Assembly: GCA_027295975.1 (NCBI GenBank)
Contig: JAPUJX010000291.1
Coordinates: 1-8,449, forward strand
Reading direction: 5' to 3'
From: Gammaproteobacteria bacterium
GTDB taxonomy: Bacteria; Pseudomonadota; Gammaproteobacteria; Pseudomonadales; Azotimanducaceae
Length of the DNA stretch: 8,449 nt
The position numbers and the translations under genes were made by a program. The notes under the pieces are model-generated. The model was not told the DNA's origin, ran no database searches, and saw nothing but the letters and a program-made list of their open reading frames with translations. The first letter of the stretch is position 1. Each line of letters opens with the position of its first letter. Below are positions 1,590-8,449 of this stretch, piece after piece.

Positions 1590-2747
1590 CTAATACCAGA
1601 ACGAGATAAAGGCGCGGGTTACGATCGAATGAAAGCCATACAGCGGTTCGCTGCCCGCGTTAACACCCGTTGCGGTGACGTCACGAAAGTTGTCGTAGTC
1701 AAAATAAATGTAGTCGACAAACAGGTTCACTTCGCCTTTTTTGAAGAACGGCATCCAATCCGGCTTGAACTCGTAACTCAGTCCCACTCCGGCGGTATGG
1801 GAAACGAACGTACTGAGTTCCTTGTCGCGGGCGAGAAAGTTCTGCGCCGAGGGGCGATCGAAGAGGTCGCTGTAAAAGTCGGCCGACGTCTGCGAGTAAT
1901 AACGATATTTCACATCGAGGGTTATCCCCTTGGGCAACGGATGCACATAGGTAAACTCGACGTTCCACGCATCAACTCCCCAGGTATCCGTGTAATAACG
2001 GTATTCGGCCTTCACAGACGCACGGTACGGCAGGTAATACAAGGCCCGAATGGCCGTGGCACTCGAGGTTTTGGTACGTGGATAAATTTCCGGCTCGTAC
2101 TCGTAACCTCGTGCCGAGTTGACGTCGAGATAACGCACCTGTCGATAGGGGTTGTTGAGAAACCCTTCGTCGCTCACTCCTTCGTAGTTGAGGTTGACGA
2201 TCATGTTTTTGGTGATGATCTGTGAGAGGTCGACCCGGTAACCCTGGCGGGTCGTTTCTTCCTCGAAGTTGAGATCGCCATTGCGATAAACCGTATCCCA
2301 GCCCCGGCCGTAACTGATGCCGAGGGTGGTGAGGTCGCCGAAAAAATCCTGGCTGATGCCAAACCGCACCGAGTCCGCCGAATAGTCGTCTTCCTCGCTG
2401 TTGGTGTAGGAAAGCCCCATGAAGGTTTTGCCGTGCAGGTAGTCGACACCGATACTCTTTTCGTCTCGCTCTTCTTCGTACTCGCTGGCGGTGGCCATCA
2501 CGTCGATCGAAGCGCTGGTAATCATGTCGACGTAATAATTACTCCAAACCGACACGGTGTCTCTGAACCCTTTTCGAACCAGCACCGAAGGACCAACCAC
2601 CTGAAGTCCACCTCCATCGTACCCGTGATACATCAGGTCGGCCCGGTCTTCAGGGAGAATGGCAGCCTGGGCCGCCGATCCGAACAACACCAACCCTGCA
2701 ATTGCCTGGAGCAGTCCTTTGCGGGGCTTGGAACTAGTTACAGCCAC
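1590..2747 (-). CDS. DUF3570 family outer-membrane beta-barrel protein
   Basis: Predicted outer-membrane barrel of about 385 residues whose family function is not established. A Sec signal peptide (KPRKGLLQAIAGLVLFGSAAQA) is followed by the family signature LPEDRADLMYHGYDGGG and then GPSVLVRK. The rest is alternating amphipathic strands rich in Tyr and Phe, and the protein ends in FISFWY, an aromatic terminus suited to BAM insertion. The start is ambiguous. GTG at 2747 gives a compact n-region (MAVTSSKPRK) and overlaps the DUF4266 gene by 14 nt. GTG at 2765 would add six residues (MGLGAV), and neither has a strong Shine-Dalgarno sequence. It is the last gene of the five-gene operon, directly after DUF4266, an association I recall as common for these two families. 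Family assignment rests on the N-terminal signature and the neighbour. Confidence 0.88.
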   Translation of the reverse strand: MAVTSSKPRKGLLQAIAGLVLFGSAAQAAILPEDRADLMYHGYDGGGLQVVGPSVLVRKGFRDTVSVWSNYYVDMITSASIDVMATASEYEEERDEKSIGVDYLHGKTFMGLSYTNSEEDDYSADSVRFGISQDFFGDLTTLGISYGRGWDTVYRNGDLNFEEETTRQGYRVDLSQIITKNMIVNLNYEGVSDEGFLNNPYRQVRYLDVNSARGYEYEPEIYPRTKTSSATAIRALYYLPYRASVKAEYRYYTDTWGVDAWNVEFTYVHPLPKGITLDVKYRYYSQTSADFYSDLFDRPSAQNFLARDKELSTFVSHTAGVGLSYEFKPDWMPFFKKGEVNLFVDYIYFDYDNFRDVTATGVNAGSEPLYGFHSIVTRAFISFWY

Positions 2748-2985
2748 AACCGCCCCCAGACCCACCTTCGGCCCCGCGTGCGCCTTCCCGTGCCTGATAA
2801 ACGTGATGCAGATAGGCAGCAGCCACCGGCGCCCGGTTGAAGCTCATGATGGGATCCGCAAGGTTGTTTCGCTCGTATGGGTTCACCCATGGCTCGAGTT
2901 TCATCGAAGAACAGCCAACAGATCCCATAATCGAAACGCTCAACAAGATAGCCAACATAACCCTGGATACATTTGGGAACTTCAT
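2734..2985 (-). CDS. DUF4266 small lipoprotein with Gly-rich CxC tail
   Basis: An 83-residue predicted lipoprotein. The signal peptide MKFPNVSRVMLAILLSVSIMG leads to SVGC, with lipid-modified Cys25 followed by SSM, which favours the outer membrane. The mature part carries the family pattern EPWVNPYERNNLADPIM (31-47), then HHVYQAREGARG (60-71), and ends GGSGGGCGCN with Cys80 and Cys82. I recognise this as DUF4266, a family usually found beside DUF3570; its function is unknown to me. The tail cysteines could bind a metal or cofactor, form a disulfide, or be modified. The start ATG has AGGAGA 5 nt upstream. That ribosome site overlaps the stop codon of the preceding barrel gene, which suggests coupled translation. 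Its last codons overlap the start of the DUF3570 gene. Confidence 0.88.
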   Translation of the reverse strand: MKFPNVSRVMLAILLSVSIMGSVGCSSMKLEPWVNPYERNNLADPIMSFNRAPVAAAYLHHVYQAREGARGAEGGSGGGCGCN

Positions 2986-2990
2986 GGTCG

Positions 2991-2996
2991 TCTCCT
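2991..2996 (-). promoter_or_regulatory. Ribosome binding site of DUF4266 gene, overlapping upstream stop codon
   Basis: AGGAGA on the minus strand lies 5 nt before the ATG at 2985 and shares bases with the TAG stop (2997-2995) of the upstream barrel gene. This arrangement fits translational coupling. Confidence 0.65.
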
Positions 2997-3657
2997 AGAA
3001 AAAGAGGGTTACCCCGCCGGAAAACTCGATGTTGTGTTTGGTTTCCTGAGCACCGAGCAAATCGGTTTCGAATACGTGATCGCGAACGTCGATATGAAAC
3101 GCAAGCCAGTCCTTCGCGATGAGTCGATAGCCAACCCCGGCATTGATCGTAAAGAGGTCATCCCCGCCAAAGTTGGTGCTGCCAACCCCGGCAACAACAT
3201 ACATGCTGCCTTTGAAAGCCAACCCGCGTCCAAGGAAAGATTCACCTGGAAAGATGTTGTAACCGACCGACACGTTGTAATACGTCATATCCCGTTCGTC
3301 GTCGCTGAGAATCTGTGCTCCCCCGCTCAAACGTTCGAAACTGGTTTCGCCCAGGGTCGTTTTTCCGTACTGGCCTTCAACGAAAAAATCTTCCGTTACG
3401 TGATAGGCAACTCTTGCGCCTACAACCGTGTTGCTGCCGAAGTCCTCAACGCTCATCATTCCGCCGAGCAAACCAAACTCGAAGTTCTCTTTATCGAGCC
3501 TGTCTATGTCGATCTCTCGGCGTTCCGGCTCCCGCACCACGAGGGGTTCCAGCTCGAGTTCATCGGGATCGGGCGCGGCTACTGCCGCCGGGAACACCCA
3601 AAGTGTGCCCATGGCAACTATCGCGGCTAGAAAAATATGCTGAATCCGGCTTTCCAT
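2995..3657 (-). CDS. Small outer-membrane beta-barrel protein (OMP_myx_plus-like)
   Basis: A 220-residue exported protein. The signal peptide (about 1-28) ends in PAAVAA. An acidic linker (DPDELELEPLV, then EPERREIDIDRLDKENFE, about 30-60) precedes a compact barrel of about 160 residues: FGLLGGMMSVEDFGSN (61-76), GARVAYHVTEDFFVEGQYG (80-98), and further amphipathic strands to the C-terminal GGVTLFF. The block ENFE-G-GG-SVEDFGSN-GARVAYHVTEDFFVE matches what I recall of the outer-membrane beta-barrel family TIGR04565 (OMP_myx_plus), whose role is not established. The ATG at 3657 lies inside the end of the SH3-barrel gene (31-nt overlap), and the next gene starts 9 nt after its stop. Only a weak ribosome site (AGAG) precedes it, so translation may depend on the upstream gene. 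The barrel call is firm, the family name likely. Confidence 0.84.
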   Translation of the reverse strand: MESRIQHIFLAAIVAMGTLWVFPAAVAAPDPDELELEPLVVREPERREIDIDRLDKENFEFGLLGGMMSVEDFGSNTVVGARVAYHVTEDFFVEGQYGKTTLGETSFERLSGGAQILSDDERDMTYYNVSVGYNIFPGESFLGRGLAFKGSMYVVAGVGSTNFGGDDLFTINAGVGYRLIAKDWLAFHIDVRDHVFETDLLGAQETKHNIEFSGGVTLFF

Positions 3658-4415
3658 TGATCTATCTCTTGGTTGTCGTCTCGACTGGTGAGCACCGTAT
3701 GGCGTTTGTATTCCATCCGCAGAATGAACCGGTCACTCAGGTAGACGTTCACGCCCGTTCCCGCATGGACAATCTCGTCGGTGCGGTCTTCCGCCTGAAC
3801 TATGGTGGTATGCGGCTTGGTTTTGATCATACCGGTGCCAATCGTGAAATAAGGTGACACACGCCACTCGGGAAACGGATACATGACAATGTTTCCCGAT
3901 GCCATCAGACCATCGGAGAAATTACCGAGGATCTGAGTGGCTTCGAACTGCACAGTGATGTGTTTGTTGAGTGCGTAACCCAGATACCCGGTGATCGAGG
4001 CCGCACCGCCGAAATCTCCACCGTTCAGGCCCAGCTCCCATCGCCGCCTGGCGAAGTCACCCAGCGCAATTTTTCCGAAATCGATCTGATTTCCTTCGAG
4101 GTCCAGGGTGTGACGCATCTGCTCGACGTGCACCCAGCCTTCCTGCAGACGTTGACCACGAGGCACCCGTACCTTGAACCACTCCGTGCGTTGTTTGAGG
4201 ATCTGGATGCGATCGCCCTGACCGGCCACATAAAATACCGGGTAACCGCGGCCCGGGCCGGTATGCATCTCGATATATGGATCCGACACCACCACTTCGG
4301 GCTGATAGGTCTGAAAGAAGTCCAGCACTCGCGCCTGGGCGGAAACGGCAACGAACAGGCAAACGAGGGCCAGCAGCAATCGCGTTCCCAGGTATCTGAC
4401 TAGTCTGCCGTTCAT
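3627..4415 (-). CDS. Exported SH3-domain protein with C-terminal beta barrel
   Basis: A 262-residue protein in two parts. After a clear signal peptide (MNGRLVRYLGTRLLLALVCLFVAVSAQA), residues about 42-100 form a bacterial SH3 domain: VVVSDPYIEMHTGPGRGYPVFYV, then GDRIQILKQRTEWFKVRV and EGWVHVEQM. Such domains often bind peptidoglycan or peptides. From about 122 to 262 there is a small outer-membrane-type barrel (ARRRWELGLNGGDFGG, ITGYLGYALNKHITVQFEA, YFTIGTGMI), ending AGFSIFF. The ATG at 4415 was chosen because AAGGAG lies 10 nt upstream and the signal peptide then starts cleanly. A TTG at 4439 overlapping the upstream TGA is an alternative and would add eight basic residues. The gene follows the di-haem lipoprotein gene by 20 nt and overlaps the next by 31 nt. 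It may bridge the cell wall and outer membrane; that is inference. Confidence 0.86.
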   Translation of the reverse strand: MNGRLVRYLGTRLLLALVCLFVAVSAQARVLDFFQTYQPEVVVSDPYIEMHTGPGRGYPVFYVAGQGDRIQILKQRTEWFKVRVPRGQRLQEGWVHVEQMRHTLDLEGNQIDFGKIALGDFARRRWELGLNGGDFGGAASITGYLGYALNKHITVQFEATQILGNFSDGLMASGNIVMYPFPEWRVSPYFTIGTGMIKTKPHTTIVQAEDRTDEIVHAGTGVNVYLSDRFILRMEYKRHTVLTSRDDNQEIDQWKAGFSIFF

Positions 4416-4425
4416 CCTTTTCCGG

Positions 4426-4431
4426 CTCCTT
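4426..4431 (-). promoter_or_regulatory. Ribosome binding site that decides the start of the SH3-barrel gene
   Basis: AAGGAG on the minus strand lies 10 nt upstream of the ATG at 4415 and downstream of the alternative TTG at 4439, so it supports the ATG. Confidence 0.65.
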
Positions 4432-4435
4432 AAGC

Positions 4436-7135
4436 TCAAGGCGGTACGTCAAATGGGTTGTTGTAATACTGACCACCAATGTCGATCCATTCGGAGATGA
4501 GCTTCAACTCCGCCGCAGACAACCGGCCCGCGTGGCTTCCACCATCGAACAACGTGAAAAACCGGGGGGAGAAGTTCGCGCCGACAACAGACAACGAAGG
4601 GGTGAGCAAGACCGGAATCAGAATCGGAATGGGATCGCCATTGGCATCCAGCACCGGGTCGCCGTTTGCATCGAGCAGGAACAGCAGGTTGCCGTTTTCA
4701 TCGGTGTCCTGTACCAGCACATCGATGAGCGCACCGTTGTCGAGGATCTGGGAATTATCGTTGAACAACAACTCACGATAACTTTTGAAGTGATCCGGCT
4801 CGTCTGCAGAAAGACCGTCGGACAGATCGACCTGGGCCGCCGGTACCACGGCCGCGCCCATGTCATCGACGGCGCGGTGGCAACTCGTGCAGGTATCGTC
4901 GCGCAACAACGTGATGCCGTCGATGTCGAACACCCGGCGATCTACTCCCCACAGGGGATGTACATGGGTCTCGTAGTTGACGACGATGCGGCAGGTGGCA
5001 TTCCAATTGGTTACACAGCCGGGATCGAGGGGCGCAGGTGTCGTCAGATCCGCGTAGCTGTAATCGAAGCTCGCATCCTTGGCACGCACATTGGGATCGG
5101 TCCACACATCCACGTACTCGATGTCCACGTTGGGATTCGGGACGCCATTGATGCGGGTATAAACCTCTGCCATCGTCTCACCGGCATTCGCGAATAGTGC
5201 GGGCTCGGTATTCGGGAACGGTGCGCCGTCCGCGGGGGCACCGGGGTTGGCGGAAGGCGCTTCGGCGTCCAACCTGCCGTGGGGAATTTCGCTGACGGAG
5301 GTATGACAGCCATTACAGGTTGCCTCTTCGCCGGGACGAACCTGCAGCCAGTTTTGATGCCTGCCCCCTAGCCTGCGGCCGTTCGCGTCGAGGATGTCGA
5401 ACCAGAAAGCAACGTTCGCCGGAACCTTCATCTTAACGGAACCGTCCGGTTCTATTGGCGCGTAACCGATCACCTCGCGCATGAGTTGTGCCTGGGAACG
5501 CCCGAACGCGGTACCGTCCAGATCTACAATATCGTCGTCGGGCATCGAGACGGCTTTTACCACGCGCACGAAACGCAGCGGACGGTCCGCATCCGTGGTG
5601 ATACCGGGATCGCGTAACGCGGTTATCGGTGCGACTTCCAGGCCATCAAAGTCGTATACGCTGGCTATGTGCACGATACCCATCGCCTCTGACACCAGGT
5701 CGGGATCGAGATCGATGCCAGCAGTCTTGTCCAGGATCACCGGCGGATTGATCCGCGCTTCCATCACCGCAACTTCCGTGAGCACCACACCCTCTTCGGC
5801 AACGACGATTGGCTGCTGGGTGTTCTCATCGAGGTCGTGCATCCAGATGCCATAAAGCGGGTCTGCTTCCACAAAGTTCGGATCGAGCAGGAATTCGTCT
5901 GTACAGGGTGCAATCACCGGATCCGCCGGGTTGCTTATGACGTCGATCAACCGACATTGGCTCCATGAGACGATCACCCGGTTGGTGCCATCGAACAGCG
6001 GCACCAGGTTTGCGTAGCGGCCCTGTAACGCCGGGGTGTCGTCATCCAGATTGAGTTCACCCGGAATGAGAAACTCCTGGGCATCGGCTAAAAGCCCGAG
6101 ATTCGCAAAAGTCGGTTGATCGTGTTCCACATAGGACGCGGTATCGATGGCAACCGGTATCGCACCCATGCGGGTCTGGTTGCCGGGTGGGCGCATCATG
6201 ACCAGCAACCGGCCATCCGGCAGTTCCTGAGCCTTCACGAAATCGATGGTGGCGCCAAGTGGTCCGGTATCGTGGCTGTGAACACCATACAGAAGCTGCA
6301 ATTCCGTACCATCGGGGAGTACCCGGTAGAGGCTGATTCGATCGCGCCCGGCAACGTTGTCCCAACGGCTGTATACGACCCGACCGTCGCTCAACACCAT
6401 TGGGTCGAGGTCGGAACTCTGGTTGAAAGTGATCTGATGAATGTCGCTGCCATCCTCGTTCATCACGTGCAGCGTCAGCGCTTCCTCGTTGCGATTTTCA
6501 TCAAACGCGGGAAACTGCGGTTTACCTTCGTCGAGCAACACGGCTTTCGACTGACGTTGACGCGTTGAGGAGAAAAGGATTCTGCCATCGGGAAGAAAAC
6601 GCGGAGCAACATCCTGGCCAATCTCGGCGGTGATGTCGGAACCGATCGCGCGACCGAGCAGATTCGTCATTCGATCGTAAACCCAGATGTTCCATTTGGG
6701 TTGTTCGTCATCGTCGAGATCCGGATCTTCCGGTGCGCGCATGGCAAAAACGAGTTTCTGGCCATCGTAGGAGACGCTCAGGTCCTTCACGTCATACGCA
6801 GGGGGTTCGCCGTCCTCATCATCGGGGAACACCCCGTCGGTAAGGGATATTTCGGCGGCGCTCGGGGAAGCACGATCCCGCAGGAAAAGTTCGGCGCCCG
6901 GACGAAACTCTACGGCACGGCGAATTTCGGAAGTAAGCAGGTTGCCATCGTCATCGAACAACACACCTCGACTGACGTAGGCAATTGGAAAGTCGAGCAC
7001 CACCGGATCGGGGTCCTGGCCACCACCCAGCGCCGAGCTGGAACTGCTTCCACTTCCACCTCCGCAGCCGACAACACCAATGGCAAACGCCACGGTGATC
7101 GTGAACTTCACAACAAACTGACGTTGACAGGTCAC
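4436..7135 (-). CDS. Di-haem c-type lipoprotein with TolB/PD40-like propeller and hydrazine-synthase-alpha-like region
   Basis: First gene of the operon; about 899 residues from GTG 7135. A lipoprotein signal (QFVVKFTITVAFAIGVVGC) gives lipidated Cys24, followed by a Gly/Ser-rich linker. Residues about 48-460 look like a TolB/PD40-type beta propeller, with blades such as LSVSYDGQKLVFAM, APRFLPDGRILFSST and DPMVLSDGRVVYSRWD. Residues about 518-618 carry IEPDGSVKMKVPANVAFWFDILD and NWLQVRPGEEATCNGCH, the pattern I associate with the middle domain of hydrazine-synthase alpha-like proteins. Haem motifs are CNGCH (607-611) and CTSCH (749-753); the second follows NYETHVHPLW, a usual lead-in for such cytochromes. 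The end (LSAAELKLISEWIDIGGQYYNNP) fits a cytochrome c helix. An LDANGDP tandem (821-834) resembles a calcium loop. Starts at 7111, 7177 (ATG) and 7201 (TTG) are possible; 7135 has GAGGG 8 nt upstream. The reaction is unknown. The protein probably faces the periplasm or cell surface. Confidence 0.85.
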   Translation of the reverse strand: MTCQRQFVVKFTITVAFAIGVVGCGGGSGSSSSSALGGGQDPDPVVLDFPIAYVSRGVLFDDDGNLLTSEIRRAVEFRPGAELFLRDRASPSAAEISLTDGVFPDDEDGEPPAYDVKDLSVSYDGQKLVFAMRAPEDPDLDDDEQPKWNIWVYDRMTNLLGRAIGSDITAEIGQDVAPRFLPDGRILFSSTRQRQSKAVLLDEGKPQFPAFDENRNEEALTLHVMNEDGSDIHQITFNQSSDLDPMVLSDGRVVYSRWDNVAGRDRISLYRVLPDGTELQLLYGVHSHDTGPLGATIDFVKAQELPDGRLLVMMRPPGNQTRMGAIPVAIDTASYVEHDQPTFANLGLLADAQEFLIPGELNLDDDTPALQGRYANLVPLFDGTNRVIVSWSQCRLIDVISNPADPVIAPCTDEFLLDPNFVEADPLYGIWMHDLDENTQQPIVVAEEGVVLTEVAVMEARINPPVILDKTAGIDLDPDLVSEAMGIVHIASVYDFDGLEVAPITALRDPGITTDADRPLRFVRVVKAVSMPDDDIVDLDGTAFGRSQAQLMREVIGYAPIEPDGSVKMKVPANVAFWFDILDANGRRLGGRHQNWLQVRPGEEATCNGCHTSVSEIPHGRLDAEAPSANPGAPADGAPFPNTEPALFANAGETMAEVYTRINGVPNPNVDIEYVDVWTDPNVRAKDASFDYSYADLTTPAPLDPGCVTNWNATCRIVVNYETHVHPLWGVDRRVFDIDGITLLRDDTCTSCHRAVDDMGAAVVPAAQVDLSDGLSADEPDHFKSYRELLFNDNSQILDNGALIDVLVQDTDENGNLLFLLDANGDPVLDANGDPIPILIPVLLTPSLSVVGANFSPRFFTLFDGGSHAGRLSAAELKLISEWIDIGGQYYNNPFDVPP
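4625..4676 (-). repeat. In-gene tandem repeat encoding LDANGDP twice
   Basis: Inside the di-haem lipoprotein, two adjacent seven-codon units both encode LDANGDP but with different synonymous codons (for example GCAAAC against GCCAAT). The repeat is therefore held at protein level rather than being a recent DNA slippage. DxNxD spacing resembles calcium-binding loops, and DTDENGN lies just before it. Confidence 0.6.
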
Positions 7136-7143
7136 TAAAGCCG

Positions 7144-7148
7144 CCCTC
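7144..7148 (-). promoter_or_regulatory. Ribosome binding site supporting the GTG start at 7135
   Basis: GAGGG on the minus strand lies 8 nt before GTG 7135. The alternative starts at 7111, 7177 and 7201 lack an equally good site. Confidence 0.5.
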
Positions 7149-7176
7149 TGGCTGGATATCAACCAAGTGCCAGCCA
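7149..7176 (-). promoter_or_regulatory. Inverted repeat flush with the ribosome site of the di-haem lipoprotein gene
   Basis: TGGCTGG (7149-7155) and CCAGCCA (7170-7176) form a perfect 7-bp stem around a 14-nt loop. The 3' arm of the minus-strand RNA hairpin ends at 7149, directly beside GAGGG (7148-7144). It could modulate ribosome access or be a protein site. Seen in sequence; role inferred. Confidence 0.4.
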
Positions 7177-7196
7177 TTCTTCCATAAGCCCAATGG

Positions 7197-7248
7197 TTCA
7201 AACGTGACTGCTATCACAGCCGGGGGTGGGGGCGCATTCAAGCGTGAC
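7197..7248. repeat. 12-bp direct repeat TTCAARCGTGAC, 40 bp apart
   Basis: TTCAAACGTGAC at 7197-7208 and TTCAAGCGTGAC at 7237-7248 differ at one base. The offset is 40 bp, about four helical turns. The first copy overlaps the left half of the first CRP-like dyad. Confidence 0.5.
7203..7218. promoter_or_regulatory. CRP/FNR-superfamily-like dyad 1
   Basis: CGTGA-CTGCTA-TCACA matches the CRP consensus TGTGA-N6-TCACA at 9 of 10 defined bases. It lies 68 bp upstream of the GTG at 7135 of the minus-strand operon. The match is seen; the regulator is not known. Confidence 0.45.
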
Positions 7249-7275
7249 GCGTAGTAACAATCGCGCCGCCGCAAA

Positions 7276-7291
7276 TGGGATGAGTATCACA
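7276..7291. promoter_or_regulatory. CRP/FNR-superfamily-like dyad 2
   Basis: TGGGA-TGAGTA-TCACA also matches TGTGA-N6-TCACA at 9 of 10 defined bases and is preceded by AAA, as in good CRP sites. It lies exactly 73 bp from dyad 1 and shares the 9-mer TATCACAGC with it (7212-7220 and 7285-7293). It is placed about right to activate the plus-strand cytochrome gene. Confidence 0.45.
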
Positions 7292-7361
7292 GCTTCGAAA
7301 TTAGCTTTGTCAGACCCTAATCAAACAACTTCCCACCAATGGACCGGTGACTGGATAAGCG

Positions 7362-7395
7362 CGTCCAAACGATTCATGAGGGAACGCTTTGGACG
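7362..7395 (+). promoter_or_regulatory. Leader hairpin just before the ribosome site of the cytochrome gene
   Basis: CGTCCAAA (7362-7369) pairs perfectly with TTTGGACG (7388-7395). The stem can continue by two more C-G/G-C pairs across a single bulge (C7387), leaving a 13-nt loop. Five bases separate it from AGGAG. No T-run follows, so it is not an intrinsic terminator. Candidate leader structure or operator. Confidence 0.42.
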
Positions 7396-7400
7396 GGTTC

Positions 7401-7405
7401 AGGAG
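7401..7405 (+). promoter_or_regulatory. Ribosome binding site of the plus-strand cytochrome gene
   Basis: AGGAG lies 7 nt before the ATG at 7413 and fixes the start of this gene. Confidence 0.75.
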
Positions 7406-7412
7406 CATATTG

Positions 7413-8449
7413 ATGAAATCCAAAGTGAACGCTCACCGAACCTGGCAGTTCGTAGTGCTCTTTCTTTTAGCGTCATCCATGACGCCGGCGGGTTGGGCCG
7501 ATGCCAGAGACCAGGCGAAACGTATTCACGACCGTGTCGCCGGCGTTCCCCCGAACGAAACCACCCTGCTGGCCATGGAAACTGCGATCACAAACAACGA
7601 CGCTATCGGTGCGGCGTTGATGGCTACCGATTCTCGAGAATTCTACAACGTGACATTAAAGAACTTCGCGGCACCCTGGACCAATCGCGACGACAGCATT
7701 TTCGTTCCGCTGGACGACTATCAGGCGACCATCATCGGGTTGGTACGAGACGATGGCGACTTTCGCGAGATATTGAGCGGCGACATCTTATATATAGGCG
7801 CGGGCCCCGGCGTTCCCGCTTATTCAAACAACAGCAACGCACATTACGAAGCCCTGGAGAATTCGGGCGTCAACCTGCAAACCAACCTGCAGGCAACGAC
7901 GCAGTCATCGTTGAACGGCATTCCCACCGGCGCGACGGCGGGCATCATGACCAGCCGCGCGGCCGCAAAAGCGTTTTTCATCGATGGCACAAACCGAGCC
8001 ATGTTCCGTTTCACGCTTCGCAATCACCTATGCAACGACATGGAGCAGGTGCTGGATACTTCCCGGGCACCGGACCGGATTCGTCAGGACGTGTCTCGAA
8101 GCCCCGGCGGCGACAGCCGGATCTTCCTCAACAATTGTATTGGTTGTCACTCCGGCATGGATCCCATGGCACAGTCTTTTGCCTATTACGATTACATCTA
8201 CGATGAGGTCAACGATCCGTTTGGCGACAGCGGTGCCATCAGTTACAACGGCGCAGGCGCGGTCGACCCCGTCACCGGCACGCGAGTAGTTTCCAAGTAT
8301 TTCAACAACAACAACAATTTCGAGCACGGTTTCATCACGACGGACGATGCCTGGAAAAATTATTGGCGCGAAGGCCAGAATTCCCTGCTGGGCTGGGATG
8401 CAGGTCTGCCCGGCAGCGGAAATGGCGCCAAAGGCATGGGGCAGGAACT
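7413..8449 (+). CDS. Exported mono-haem c-type cytochrome-like protein, 3'-truncated by window edge
   Basis: From ATG 7413 (AGGAG 7 nt upstream) 345 codons stay open to the window edge. The signal peptide MKSKVNAHRTWQFVVLFLLASS is followed by MTPAGWA and a likely cut before DARDQ. Residues about 36-130 hold IHDRVAGVPPNETTLLAM and FYNVTLKNFAAPWTNRDDSIF, a block I recall from uncharacterised gammaproteobacterial proteins. GIMTSRAAAKAFFIDGTNRAMFRFT (178-202) leads to LNNCIGCHSGMDPMAQSFAYYDY, where Cys242, Cys245 and His246 form the haem c site. CxxCHxxMDP recalls DUF1588 and planctomycete-type cytochromes, where this Met could be an axial ligand. A run of five Asn occurs at 298-302. The gene is divergent from the redox operon and shares its control region, so a joint role is likely. 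The reaction is unknown, and further haem sites may lie past the edge. Confidence 0.82.
   Translation, partial: MKSKVNAHRTWQFVVLFLLASSMTPAGWADARDQAKRIHDRVAGVPPNETTLLAMETAITNNDAIGAALMATDSREFYNVTLKNFAAPWTNRDDSIFVPLDDYQATIIGLVRDDGDFREILSGDILYIGAGPGVPAYSNNSNAHYEALENSGVNLQTNLQATTQSSLNGIPTGATAGIMTSRAAAKAFFIDGTNRAMFRFTLRNHLCNDMEQVLDTSRAPDRIRQDVSRSPGGDSRIFLNNCIGCHSGMDPMAQSFAYYDYIYDEVNDPFGDSGAISYNGAGAVDPVTGTRVVSKYFNNNNNFEHGFITTDDAWKNYWREGQNSLLGWDAGLPGSGNGAKGMGQE

Follow-up and report, generated by a model that had tools for sequence, protein, structure and literature searches.

We analysed an 8,449-bp contig (JAPUJX010000291.1 of assembly GCA_027295975.1) from a metagenome-assembled gammaproteobacterial genome that is 77% complete and divided into 680 contigs. 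The analysed stretch, here called the window, is the entire contig. It carries a six-gene envelope module with haem-c sites and predicted barrels, whose products are all predicted to reside in the outer membrane or beyond it, and we found that this module recurs in Gammaproteobacteria beside, or in the same genome as, a gene cluster resembling the Agl/Glt-type motor.

A predicted six-gene envelope redox module

An earlier sequence-only reading of the window had described five packed genes on the minus strand and one divergent gene, and all six lie at the positions it gave. Its counts hold as well: there are three motifs for haem c, three proteins predicted to form barrels, and a lipobox in each of PROP and DUF4266. 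Pfam and NCBIfam profile scans, from which our domain assignments derive, confirmed its hydrazine-synthase-alpha-like (HZS-alpha-like) propeller, SH3 barrel, DUF4266 and DUF3570. Export signals were assessed by eye and by pattern. The contig stops at 8449 and therefore leaves the divergent gene CYT incomplete. The genes and sites are as follows.

4436..7201, minus strand: PROP, di-haem propeller lipoprotein (921 aa as an open reading frame, ORF)
7055..7075, minus strand: PROP lipobox VVGC/GGG, Cys46 invariant in 37 aligned sequences
5753..7024, minus strand: PROP beta-propeller domain, TolB-like, aa 60-483
5303..5317, minus strand: PROP haem-c site 1, CNGCH, aa 629-633, with PHGR containing His641 after it (5273-5284)
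4877..4891, minus strand: PROP haem-c site 2, CTSCH, aa 771-775, with His890 in GGSHAG (4526-4543)
3627..4439, minus strand: SH3B, SH3 domain plus OmpA-type outer-membrane barrel (SH3_3 7.1e-7, OMP_b-brl 3.5e-7)
2995..3657, minus strand: OMPX, outer-membrane barrel of TIGR04565 'OMP_myx_plus' (2.1e-49; 167.6 bits, cut-off 60)
2734..2985, minus strand: DUF4266 lipoprotein (PF14086 1.9e-22), C-terminal CGCN with CXC at 2740-2748
1590..2765, minus strand: DUF3570 barrel, short divergent type (PF12094 1e-38; 133.7 bits, cut-off 25)
2508..2528, minus strand: DUF3570 candidate flavinylation site DMITSAS, aa 80-86, in a column conserved in PROP-linked DUF3570
2484-2504, minus strand: DUF3570 second, degenerate site DVMATAS
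7389..8447, plus strand: CYT, divergent mono-haem protein, truncated where the contig stops, with CIGCH at 8136-8150 (aa 250-254)

The module is conserved well beyond this genome. Among 80 loci of relatives, to which the locus counts below refer, 67 have all six genes, and the gene order is identical in 67/67. The sequence-only reading had named a lack of co-occurrence beyond this genome as what would refute it, and this check did not refute it. The minus-strand gaps are PROP/SH3B -4, SH3B/OMPX -31, OMPX/DUF4266 +9 and DUF4266/DUF3570 -32 nt, and its view of one unit holds. In the relatives it is extended by CYT2, a second haem lipoprotein, by a Tat-type protein whose fold resembles that of alkaline phosphatase, and often by thioredoxin and ApbE. 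Its carriers include Marinobacter, Hahella, Alteromonas and Aliikangiella.

A gene caller gives PROP as 891 aa (P0121), so that the probable start is the GTG at 7109-7111. Its profile matches are the HZS_alpha middle domain (1.1e-15) and PD40 (2.7e-5). Two CxxCH motifs are present in 95/98 PROP relatives, and both His641 and His890 are invariant in the 37 aligned sequences. In a wider set of 103 homologues, PHGR lies within 14 residues of haem site 1 in 66, and a G..H.G pattern is found downstream of site 2 in 59. CYT is found at 75/80 loci and has a single CxxCH in 92/96 relatives. It matches PSCyt3/DUF1588 below threshold only, and two relatives that are full-length (412 and 417 aa) have sub-threshold matches to PSD2/DUF1585. 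CYT2 has two CxxCH motifs in 87/91 relatives. One or two CxxCH per protein agrees with the earlier remark that the haem count is too low for a classic multihaem conduit.

The SH3B profile search matches the OprF barrel 4rlc (2.4e-5), and a C-terminal Phe ends 72/78 relatives of SH3B and 75/76 of OMPX. The OMPX profile found no match in the PDB. Among the best 120 of 3789 matches in the OMPX homologue search, the few named ones are Pseudomonadota and none is from Myxococcota. The SH3B and OMPX genes share 31 nt (3627-3657), as they do in 70/76 relatives, and we considered this overlap as a sign of coupling. It was dropped because a conserved Glu/Gln-Trp pair alone yields an in-frame ATG or GTG; the conserved overlap is probably a by-product of that pair.

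The C-terminal CGCN is found in 103/106 DUF4266 homologous ORFs. The window DUF3570 gives a partial profile match, with its best stretch at profile positions 220-383. The canonical [ST]GA[ST] flavinylation motif is absent from 74/102 DUF3570 ORFs, the window protein included. A relaxed pattern, D..[ST].A[ST], occurs once in the window protein, in 87/87 PROP-locus DUF3570 proteins of at least 300 aa, and in 4/11 without PROP in the stretch. This pattern is possibly a new target motif of ApbE. In PROP-linked DUF3570 the Gly of [ST]GA[ST] is often replaced by Ser or Thr, and a tandem pair of sites is often seen. Loss of flavinylation, considered as the cause of the missing SGAS, is weakened by the relaxed site in all of the long PROP-locus proteins.

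The alkaline-phosphatase-like fold of the Tat-type protein has moderate support and rests on VIA. No member (0/38) matches PF07394 (DUF1501) at E <= 1, the profile found a single PDB match with an E-value of 0.24, and Foldseek gave no match to the predicted model at E <= 0.001. In L221 (187-1533) and at 18 loci, the Tat-type gene has beside it a gene for a protein some 450-470 aa long, with paired cysteines near the N-terminus. We also observed thioredoxin-DUF4266 clusters without PROP (L068, L070, L072 and L076) adjoining a Tat-type DUF1501 gene and a haem (PSCyt3/DUF1588) or DUF1800 partner; at L068 the pair was assigned by eye and by a CYT match, without Pfam. DUF3570 stands beside three of these four clusters, with no DUF3570 match at L072. 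No DUF1501/haem pair was seen in the ORF listing of L067, L069, L074 and L075, and L073, L077 and L080 are short or unclear. One stand-alone cluster (L067) has DsbD beside it.

Linkage with an Agl/Glt-type core and motor

We then investigated the genes that adjoin the module. At 31/80 loci it is joined, on either side, by a set consisting of C17 (no family) and C16 (a TPR protein), with C20 (also TPR) in 29 of them. Two further members of this core cluster, C29 (TPR, GltE-like) and C37, lie inside the fetched stretch at 16 and 13 of the 31 core-adjacent loci, respectively. Twenty core clusters, not all of them linked to the module, could be read past C37 (L079, L198-L202, L204-L216 and L222). 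According to phmmer, 19 of the 20 run into TolQ-ExbD-ExbD genes, and 18 show a GltG-like gene. Pfam scans of two clusters (L198 and L208) gave MotA_ExbB (3.1e-28) and two ExbD proteins. The TonB-like protein of L198 has the AgmX/PglI C-terminal domain NF033768 (69.9 bits, cut-off 40). Against models of named Glt proteins, the L198 linker reached 44.1 bits (1e-11) against the GltG equivalog, far under its cut-off of 650, and the GltE model matched the C29 TPR protein at 36.6 bits (2.6e-9), under the cut-off of 225, with strong matches to TPR families. The GltC and GltD models found no match among the scanned core proteins. Genes from C17 through GltG stand on one stretch in L198, L199, L204-L210 and L212-L216, L206 being without a C37 match, and in L200 without a C16 match. 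The remark in the sequence-only reading that there is no inner-membrane component stands for the window contig and fails for the wider system, with its predicted inner-membrane TolQ/ExbD motor, TonB-like linker and TPR proteins.

Module genes and core genes meet in several arrangements. In L060 and L110, C17-C16-C20 come immediately after the barrel genes SH3B-OMPX. In Aliikangiella coralliicola (L206), an OMPX-SH3B-OMPX set is divergent from the core and motor, and a PROP homologue is next (16283-19501). In L079 a PROP homologue (8042-9733) directly follows the motor genes. The location of the two barrels, their size and the name OMP_myx_plus provide a lead that they could be homologues of GltB and GltA.

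The link is also found inside the window genome. Its contig C546 (L197) reads ApbE-thioredoxin-C17-C16-C20-C29-C37 and then ends; Pfam gives ApbE at 7.8e-83 and AhpC-TSA at 1.7e-33. Seven other members of its family (L200, L207-L211 and L215), among them the congener G002 (L208), share the ApbE-thioredoxin-C17 head, and in all seven it leads into motor genes. Thus, the core cluster begins with the genes that usually accompany DUF3570 and DUF4266. The sequence-only reading had associated these two families with thioredoxin-like and ApbE genes, which in this genome lie on contig C546 and not on the window contig.

Co-occurrence across genomes points the same way. Among 58 close genomes, PROP is present in 23, C16 in 26 and both in 22. 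The only PROP genome without C16 (G035) has C17 and C20 adjoining its module. We also sampled 276 Gammaproteobacteria genomes, evenly drawn, calling PROP at E < 1e-50 and excluding weak matches in G124 and G244. PROP was found in 41/276 and C17 in 62/276. C17 is present in 40/41 PROP genomes and in 22/235 others (Fisher 4.7e-31, a value that ignores shared ancestry), and the two genes are at most 20 kb apart in 27/41. Strong C17 matches (>150 bits) occur in 38/41 PROP genomes, covering 25/27 PROP families, vs 4/235 others. DUF3570 is present in 73/276 genomes and falls into full-length and short types, the short type being defined by a score under 160 bits and a match that starts past profile position 90. 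The short type occurs in 43 genomes; 39 of these have PROP, and in the other four it lies within 4 kb of C17.

Left of the module, the window also contains glmS (1-1212) and, between glmS and the module, an 88-aa ORF (1243-1509) with no family above cut-off and, in phmmer searches across the related loci, no match outside the window. PADLOC gave no match for seven window proteins, and anti-phage defence was rejected. PHROGs likewise had no match for the seven.

A proposed two-part machine and its alternatives

The coupling of the redox module with the motor set is well supported by their recurrence side by side or in one genome. We favour, with moderate confidence, the reading that the window encodes one half of an envelope system in two parts, the half with redox proteins at the outer membrane, that the other half is a predicted proton-driven motor of the Agl/Glt type, and that both form one electron-carrying machine. 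The electron flow, its direction and its purpose are what we infer from this, as are the contact between the parts and the task of the motor. Driven by the proton gradient, a TolQ/ExbD/ExbD channel with a TonB-like linker would push the TPR proteins, SH3B and the TIGR04565 barrel, or cycle them; the two barrels would be the positional counterparts of GltB and GltA. Thioredoxin might hand electrons to DUF4266, the CXC lipoprotein, from which they would reach an ApbE-attached flavin on DUF3570 and then the haems of PROP and of CYT and CYT2, or the flow might run the other way. Such a machine would carry electrons between the periplasm and surface-displayed haem proteins. The substrate of the Tat-type protein and the haem lipoproteins could then lie at the outer membrane or beyond it, with the motor positioning the complex or turning it over. 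The envelope redox part of the earlier suggestion is retained here; a plain oxidase or dehydrogenase, or a porin-cytochrome module, misses the motor half.

Several observations weigh against the two-part reading. Thioredoxin is near only 51/80 loci and ApbE near only 21/80, and the window DUF3570 has no canonical [ST]GA[ST]. The motor genes expected after C546 were not found in the incomplete window genome, where the sole motor cluster of the Agl/Glt type that we saw belongs to a paralogous core (C229). In Hahella sp. HN01 (L202), a core adjoining the module has no motor genes after it. In four clusters whose stretch reaches upstream of C17 (L204, L206, L212 and L216), no ApbE, thioredoxin, DUF4266 or DUF3570 is found there, and the cores of L204, L212 and L216 are complete on such a stretch. 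The genomes of L204, L206 and L216 have the module elsewhere, and that of L212 has no PROP. One PROP genome (G097) is without C17, 22 genomes have C17 without PROP, and the Fisher test takes no account of shared ancestry.

A rival reading has two separate systems, a redox module on its own and a Glt-like core as a co-inherited neighbour. In its favour, module and core lie on different contigs of the window genome, Glt-like cores without the redox module exist (L203, L212 and L222, the paralogue of the window genome, G000:C229), and 22 genomes with C17 have no PROP. However, co-occurrence in 40/41 genomes, adjacency on either side, ApbE and thioredoxin at the head of the core locus, and the short DUF3570 that still lies beside C17 in four PROP-less genomes weigh against it, and we think it improbable. 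We consider a surface-polymer machine the strongest rival, though an unlikely one. In it, a Glt-like motor would move or export a surface polysaccharide, much as the spore coat of Myxococcus is handled by Nfs, and the polymer would be chemically modified or cross-linked by the haem and flavin proteins and the protein with the alkaline-phosphatase-like fold. No glycosyltransferase was found among the ten L109 neighbours scanned, other recurring neighbours lying outside that scan, and Foldseek gave no match to the Tat-type protein at E <= 0.001.

A lipoprotein display machine appears less probable than the polymer machine. In it, barrels and motor would export the large haem lipoproteins, of which each locus has two, and the thioredoxin (ResA/CcmG-like) and ApbE would be maturation factors only. 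In its favour, the Myxococcus GltA/B/H barrels carry a surface adhesin, and the thioredoxin resembles ResA (130.3 bits, below the cut-off of 170). Thioredoxin-DUF4266-DUF3570 clusters with ApbE also exist, however, in stretches without PROP, barrels or motor, and are thus not cargo-specific. A hydrazine-synthase-like nitrogen enzyme is extremely improbable. PROP matches HZS alpha in fold over its full length, and hzs-like genes have been proposed to form a wider enzyme family (PMC10732223). However, PROP scores 52 bits against the 800-bit cut-off of the equivalog NF052339, Tyr is found in 0/103 homologues at the position of the axial Tyr591 (four residues after the CxxCH His), and Pfam named no MauG-like beta/gamma partner among the ten L109 genes scanned. 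The equivalog score and the absent axial Tyr exclude the identity of hydrazine synthase itself. Porin-cytochrome conduits have about ten haems in a multihaem cytochrome with a barrel, and the CxxCH counts here (two in PROP, one in CYT and two in CYT2) exclude that identity.

Within the favoured two-part reading, a more specific proposal is that the gammaproteobacterial Agl/Glt core powers redox chemistry at the surface, its proton-driven, TolQR-like motor spanning the envelope and mechanically driving or gating electron transfer across the outer membrane via a flavin barrel and HZS-alpha-like haem lipoproteins. We put this forward tentatively and think it rather doubtful; if true, no earlier case would be known of an outer-membrane redox system coupled to a motor. 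A partner set, and hence a testable function, is offered for this core. The named carriers (Marinobacter, Hahella, Alteromonas and Aliikangiella) make mutants feasible.

Comparison with known systems

PD40 propellers are common. The TolB-like propeller beside a TolQR-like motor resembles Tol-Pal, and TolB is not known to have haem sites. HZS alpha (5c2v; PMC12607021 and PMC12758564) is like PROP in uniting a propeller with a middle and a C-terminal haem domain within a single fold; PMC12607021 gives Tyr591 as the axial haem ligand. PROP differs in its lipobox, in its conserved His candidates in place of Tyr591, and in its partners. A 2025 survey of HZS homologues describes Planctomycetota and a few other groups in which homologues of alpha and of beta-gamma lie together; 'gammaproteobacteria', 'Pseudomonadota' and 'Marinobacter' are absent from its main text. 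The pairs of DUF1501 with PSCyt/DUF1588 or DUF1800 proteins likewise join a Tat-type protein to a haem partner, also beside stand-alone thioredoxin-DUF4266-DUF3570 clusters. The Tat-type protein of the module lacks the Pfam DUF1501 match, although its fold class fits.

The flavin system of Meheust et al. 2021 (PMC8238504) shares DUF3570, DUF4266 with CXC, thioredoxin and ApbE. That study showed ApbE attaching flavin to a Chlorobium DUF3570 at two [S/T]GA[S/T] motifs and proposed a thioredoxin/flavin system with DUF4266. The present system differs in the short DUF3570 with its relaxed site and in having a propeller, barrels, a motor and haem proteins as well. The main text of that paper has none of the words ExbB, gliding, barrel, propeller, DUF1501, DUF1588 and DUF1800. 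It is also the only place in the literature searched where DUF4266 or DUF3570 is named. No title or abstract in that literature describes the module, in line with the earlier suggestion of an undescribed combination. Outside subscription journals, it has no joint mention of AglRQS/AgmX with ApbE, DUF3570 or hydrazine synthase; thus, gliding-type motors and extracytosolic flavin or haem chemistry have not been joined there.

The closest known counterpart of the motor half is the gammaproteobacterial cluster of gltC, D, E and G, aglR, Q and S and one extra gene, which Luciano et al. 2011 (PMC3169522) call a functional complex 'of unknown function'. The same text places gltA and gltB only in Myxococcales and Bdellovibrionales and gives the Myxococcus xanthus order as gltK-gltB-gltA-gltC, with a GltB of 275 aa and a GltA of 256 aa; the word cytochrome is absent from the main text. 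The likeness lies in TPR proteins, a TonB/PglI-type linker and a TolQ-ExbD-ExbD motor in one cluster. The cluster described here differs in its association with haem proteins, with proteins of the flavin and thiol types, and with TIGR04565 barrels.

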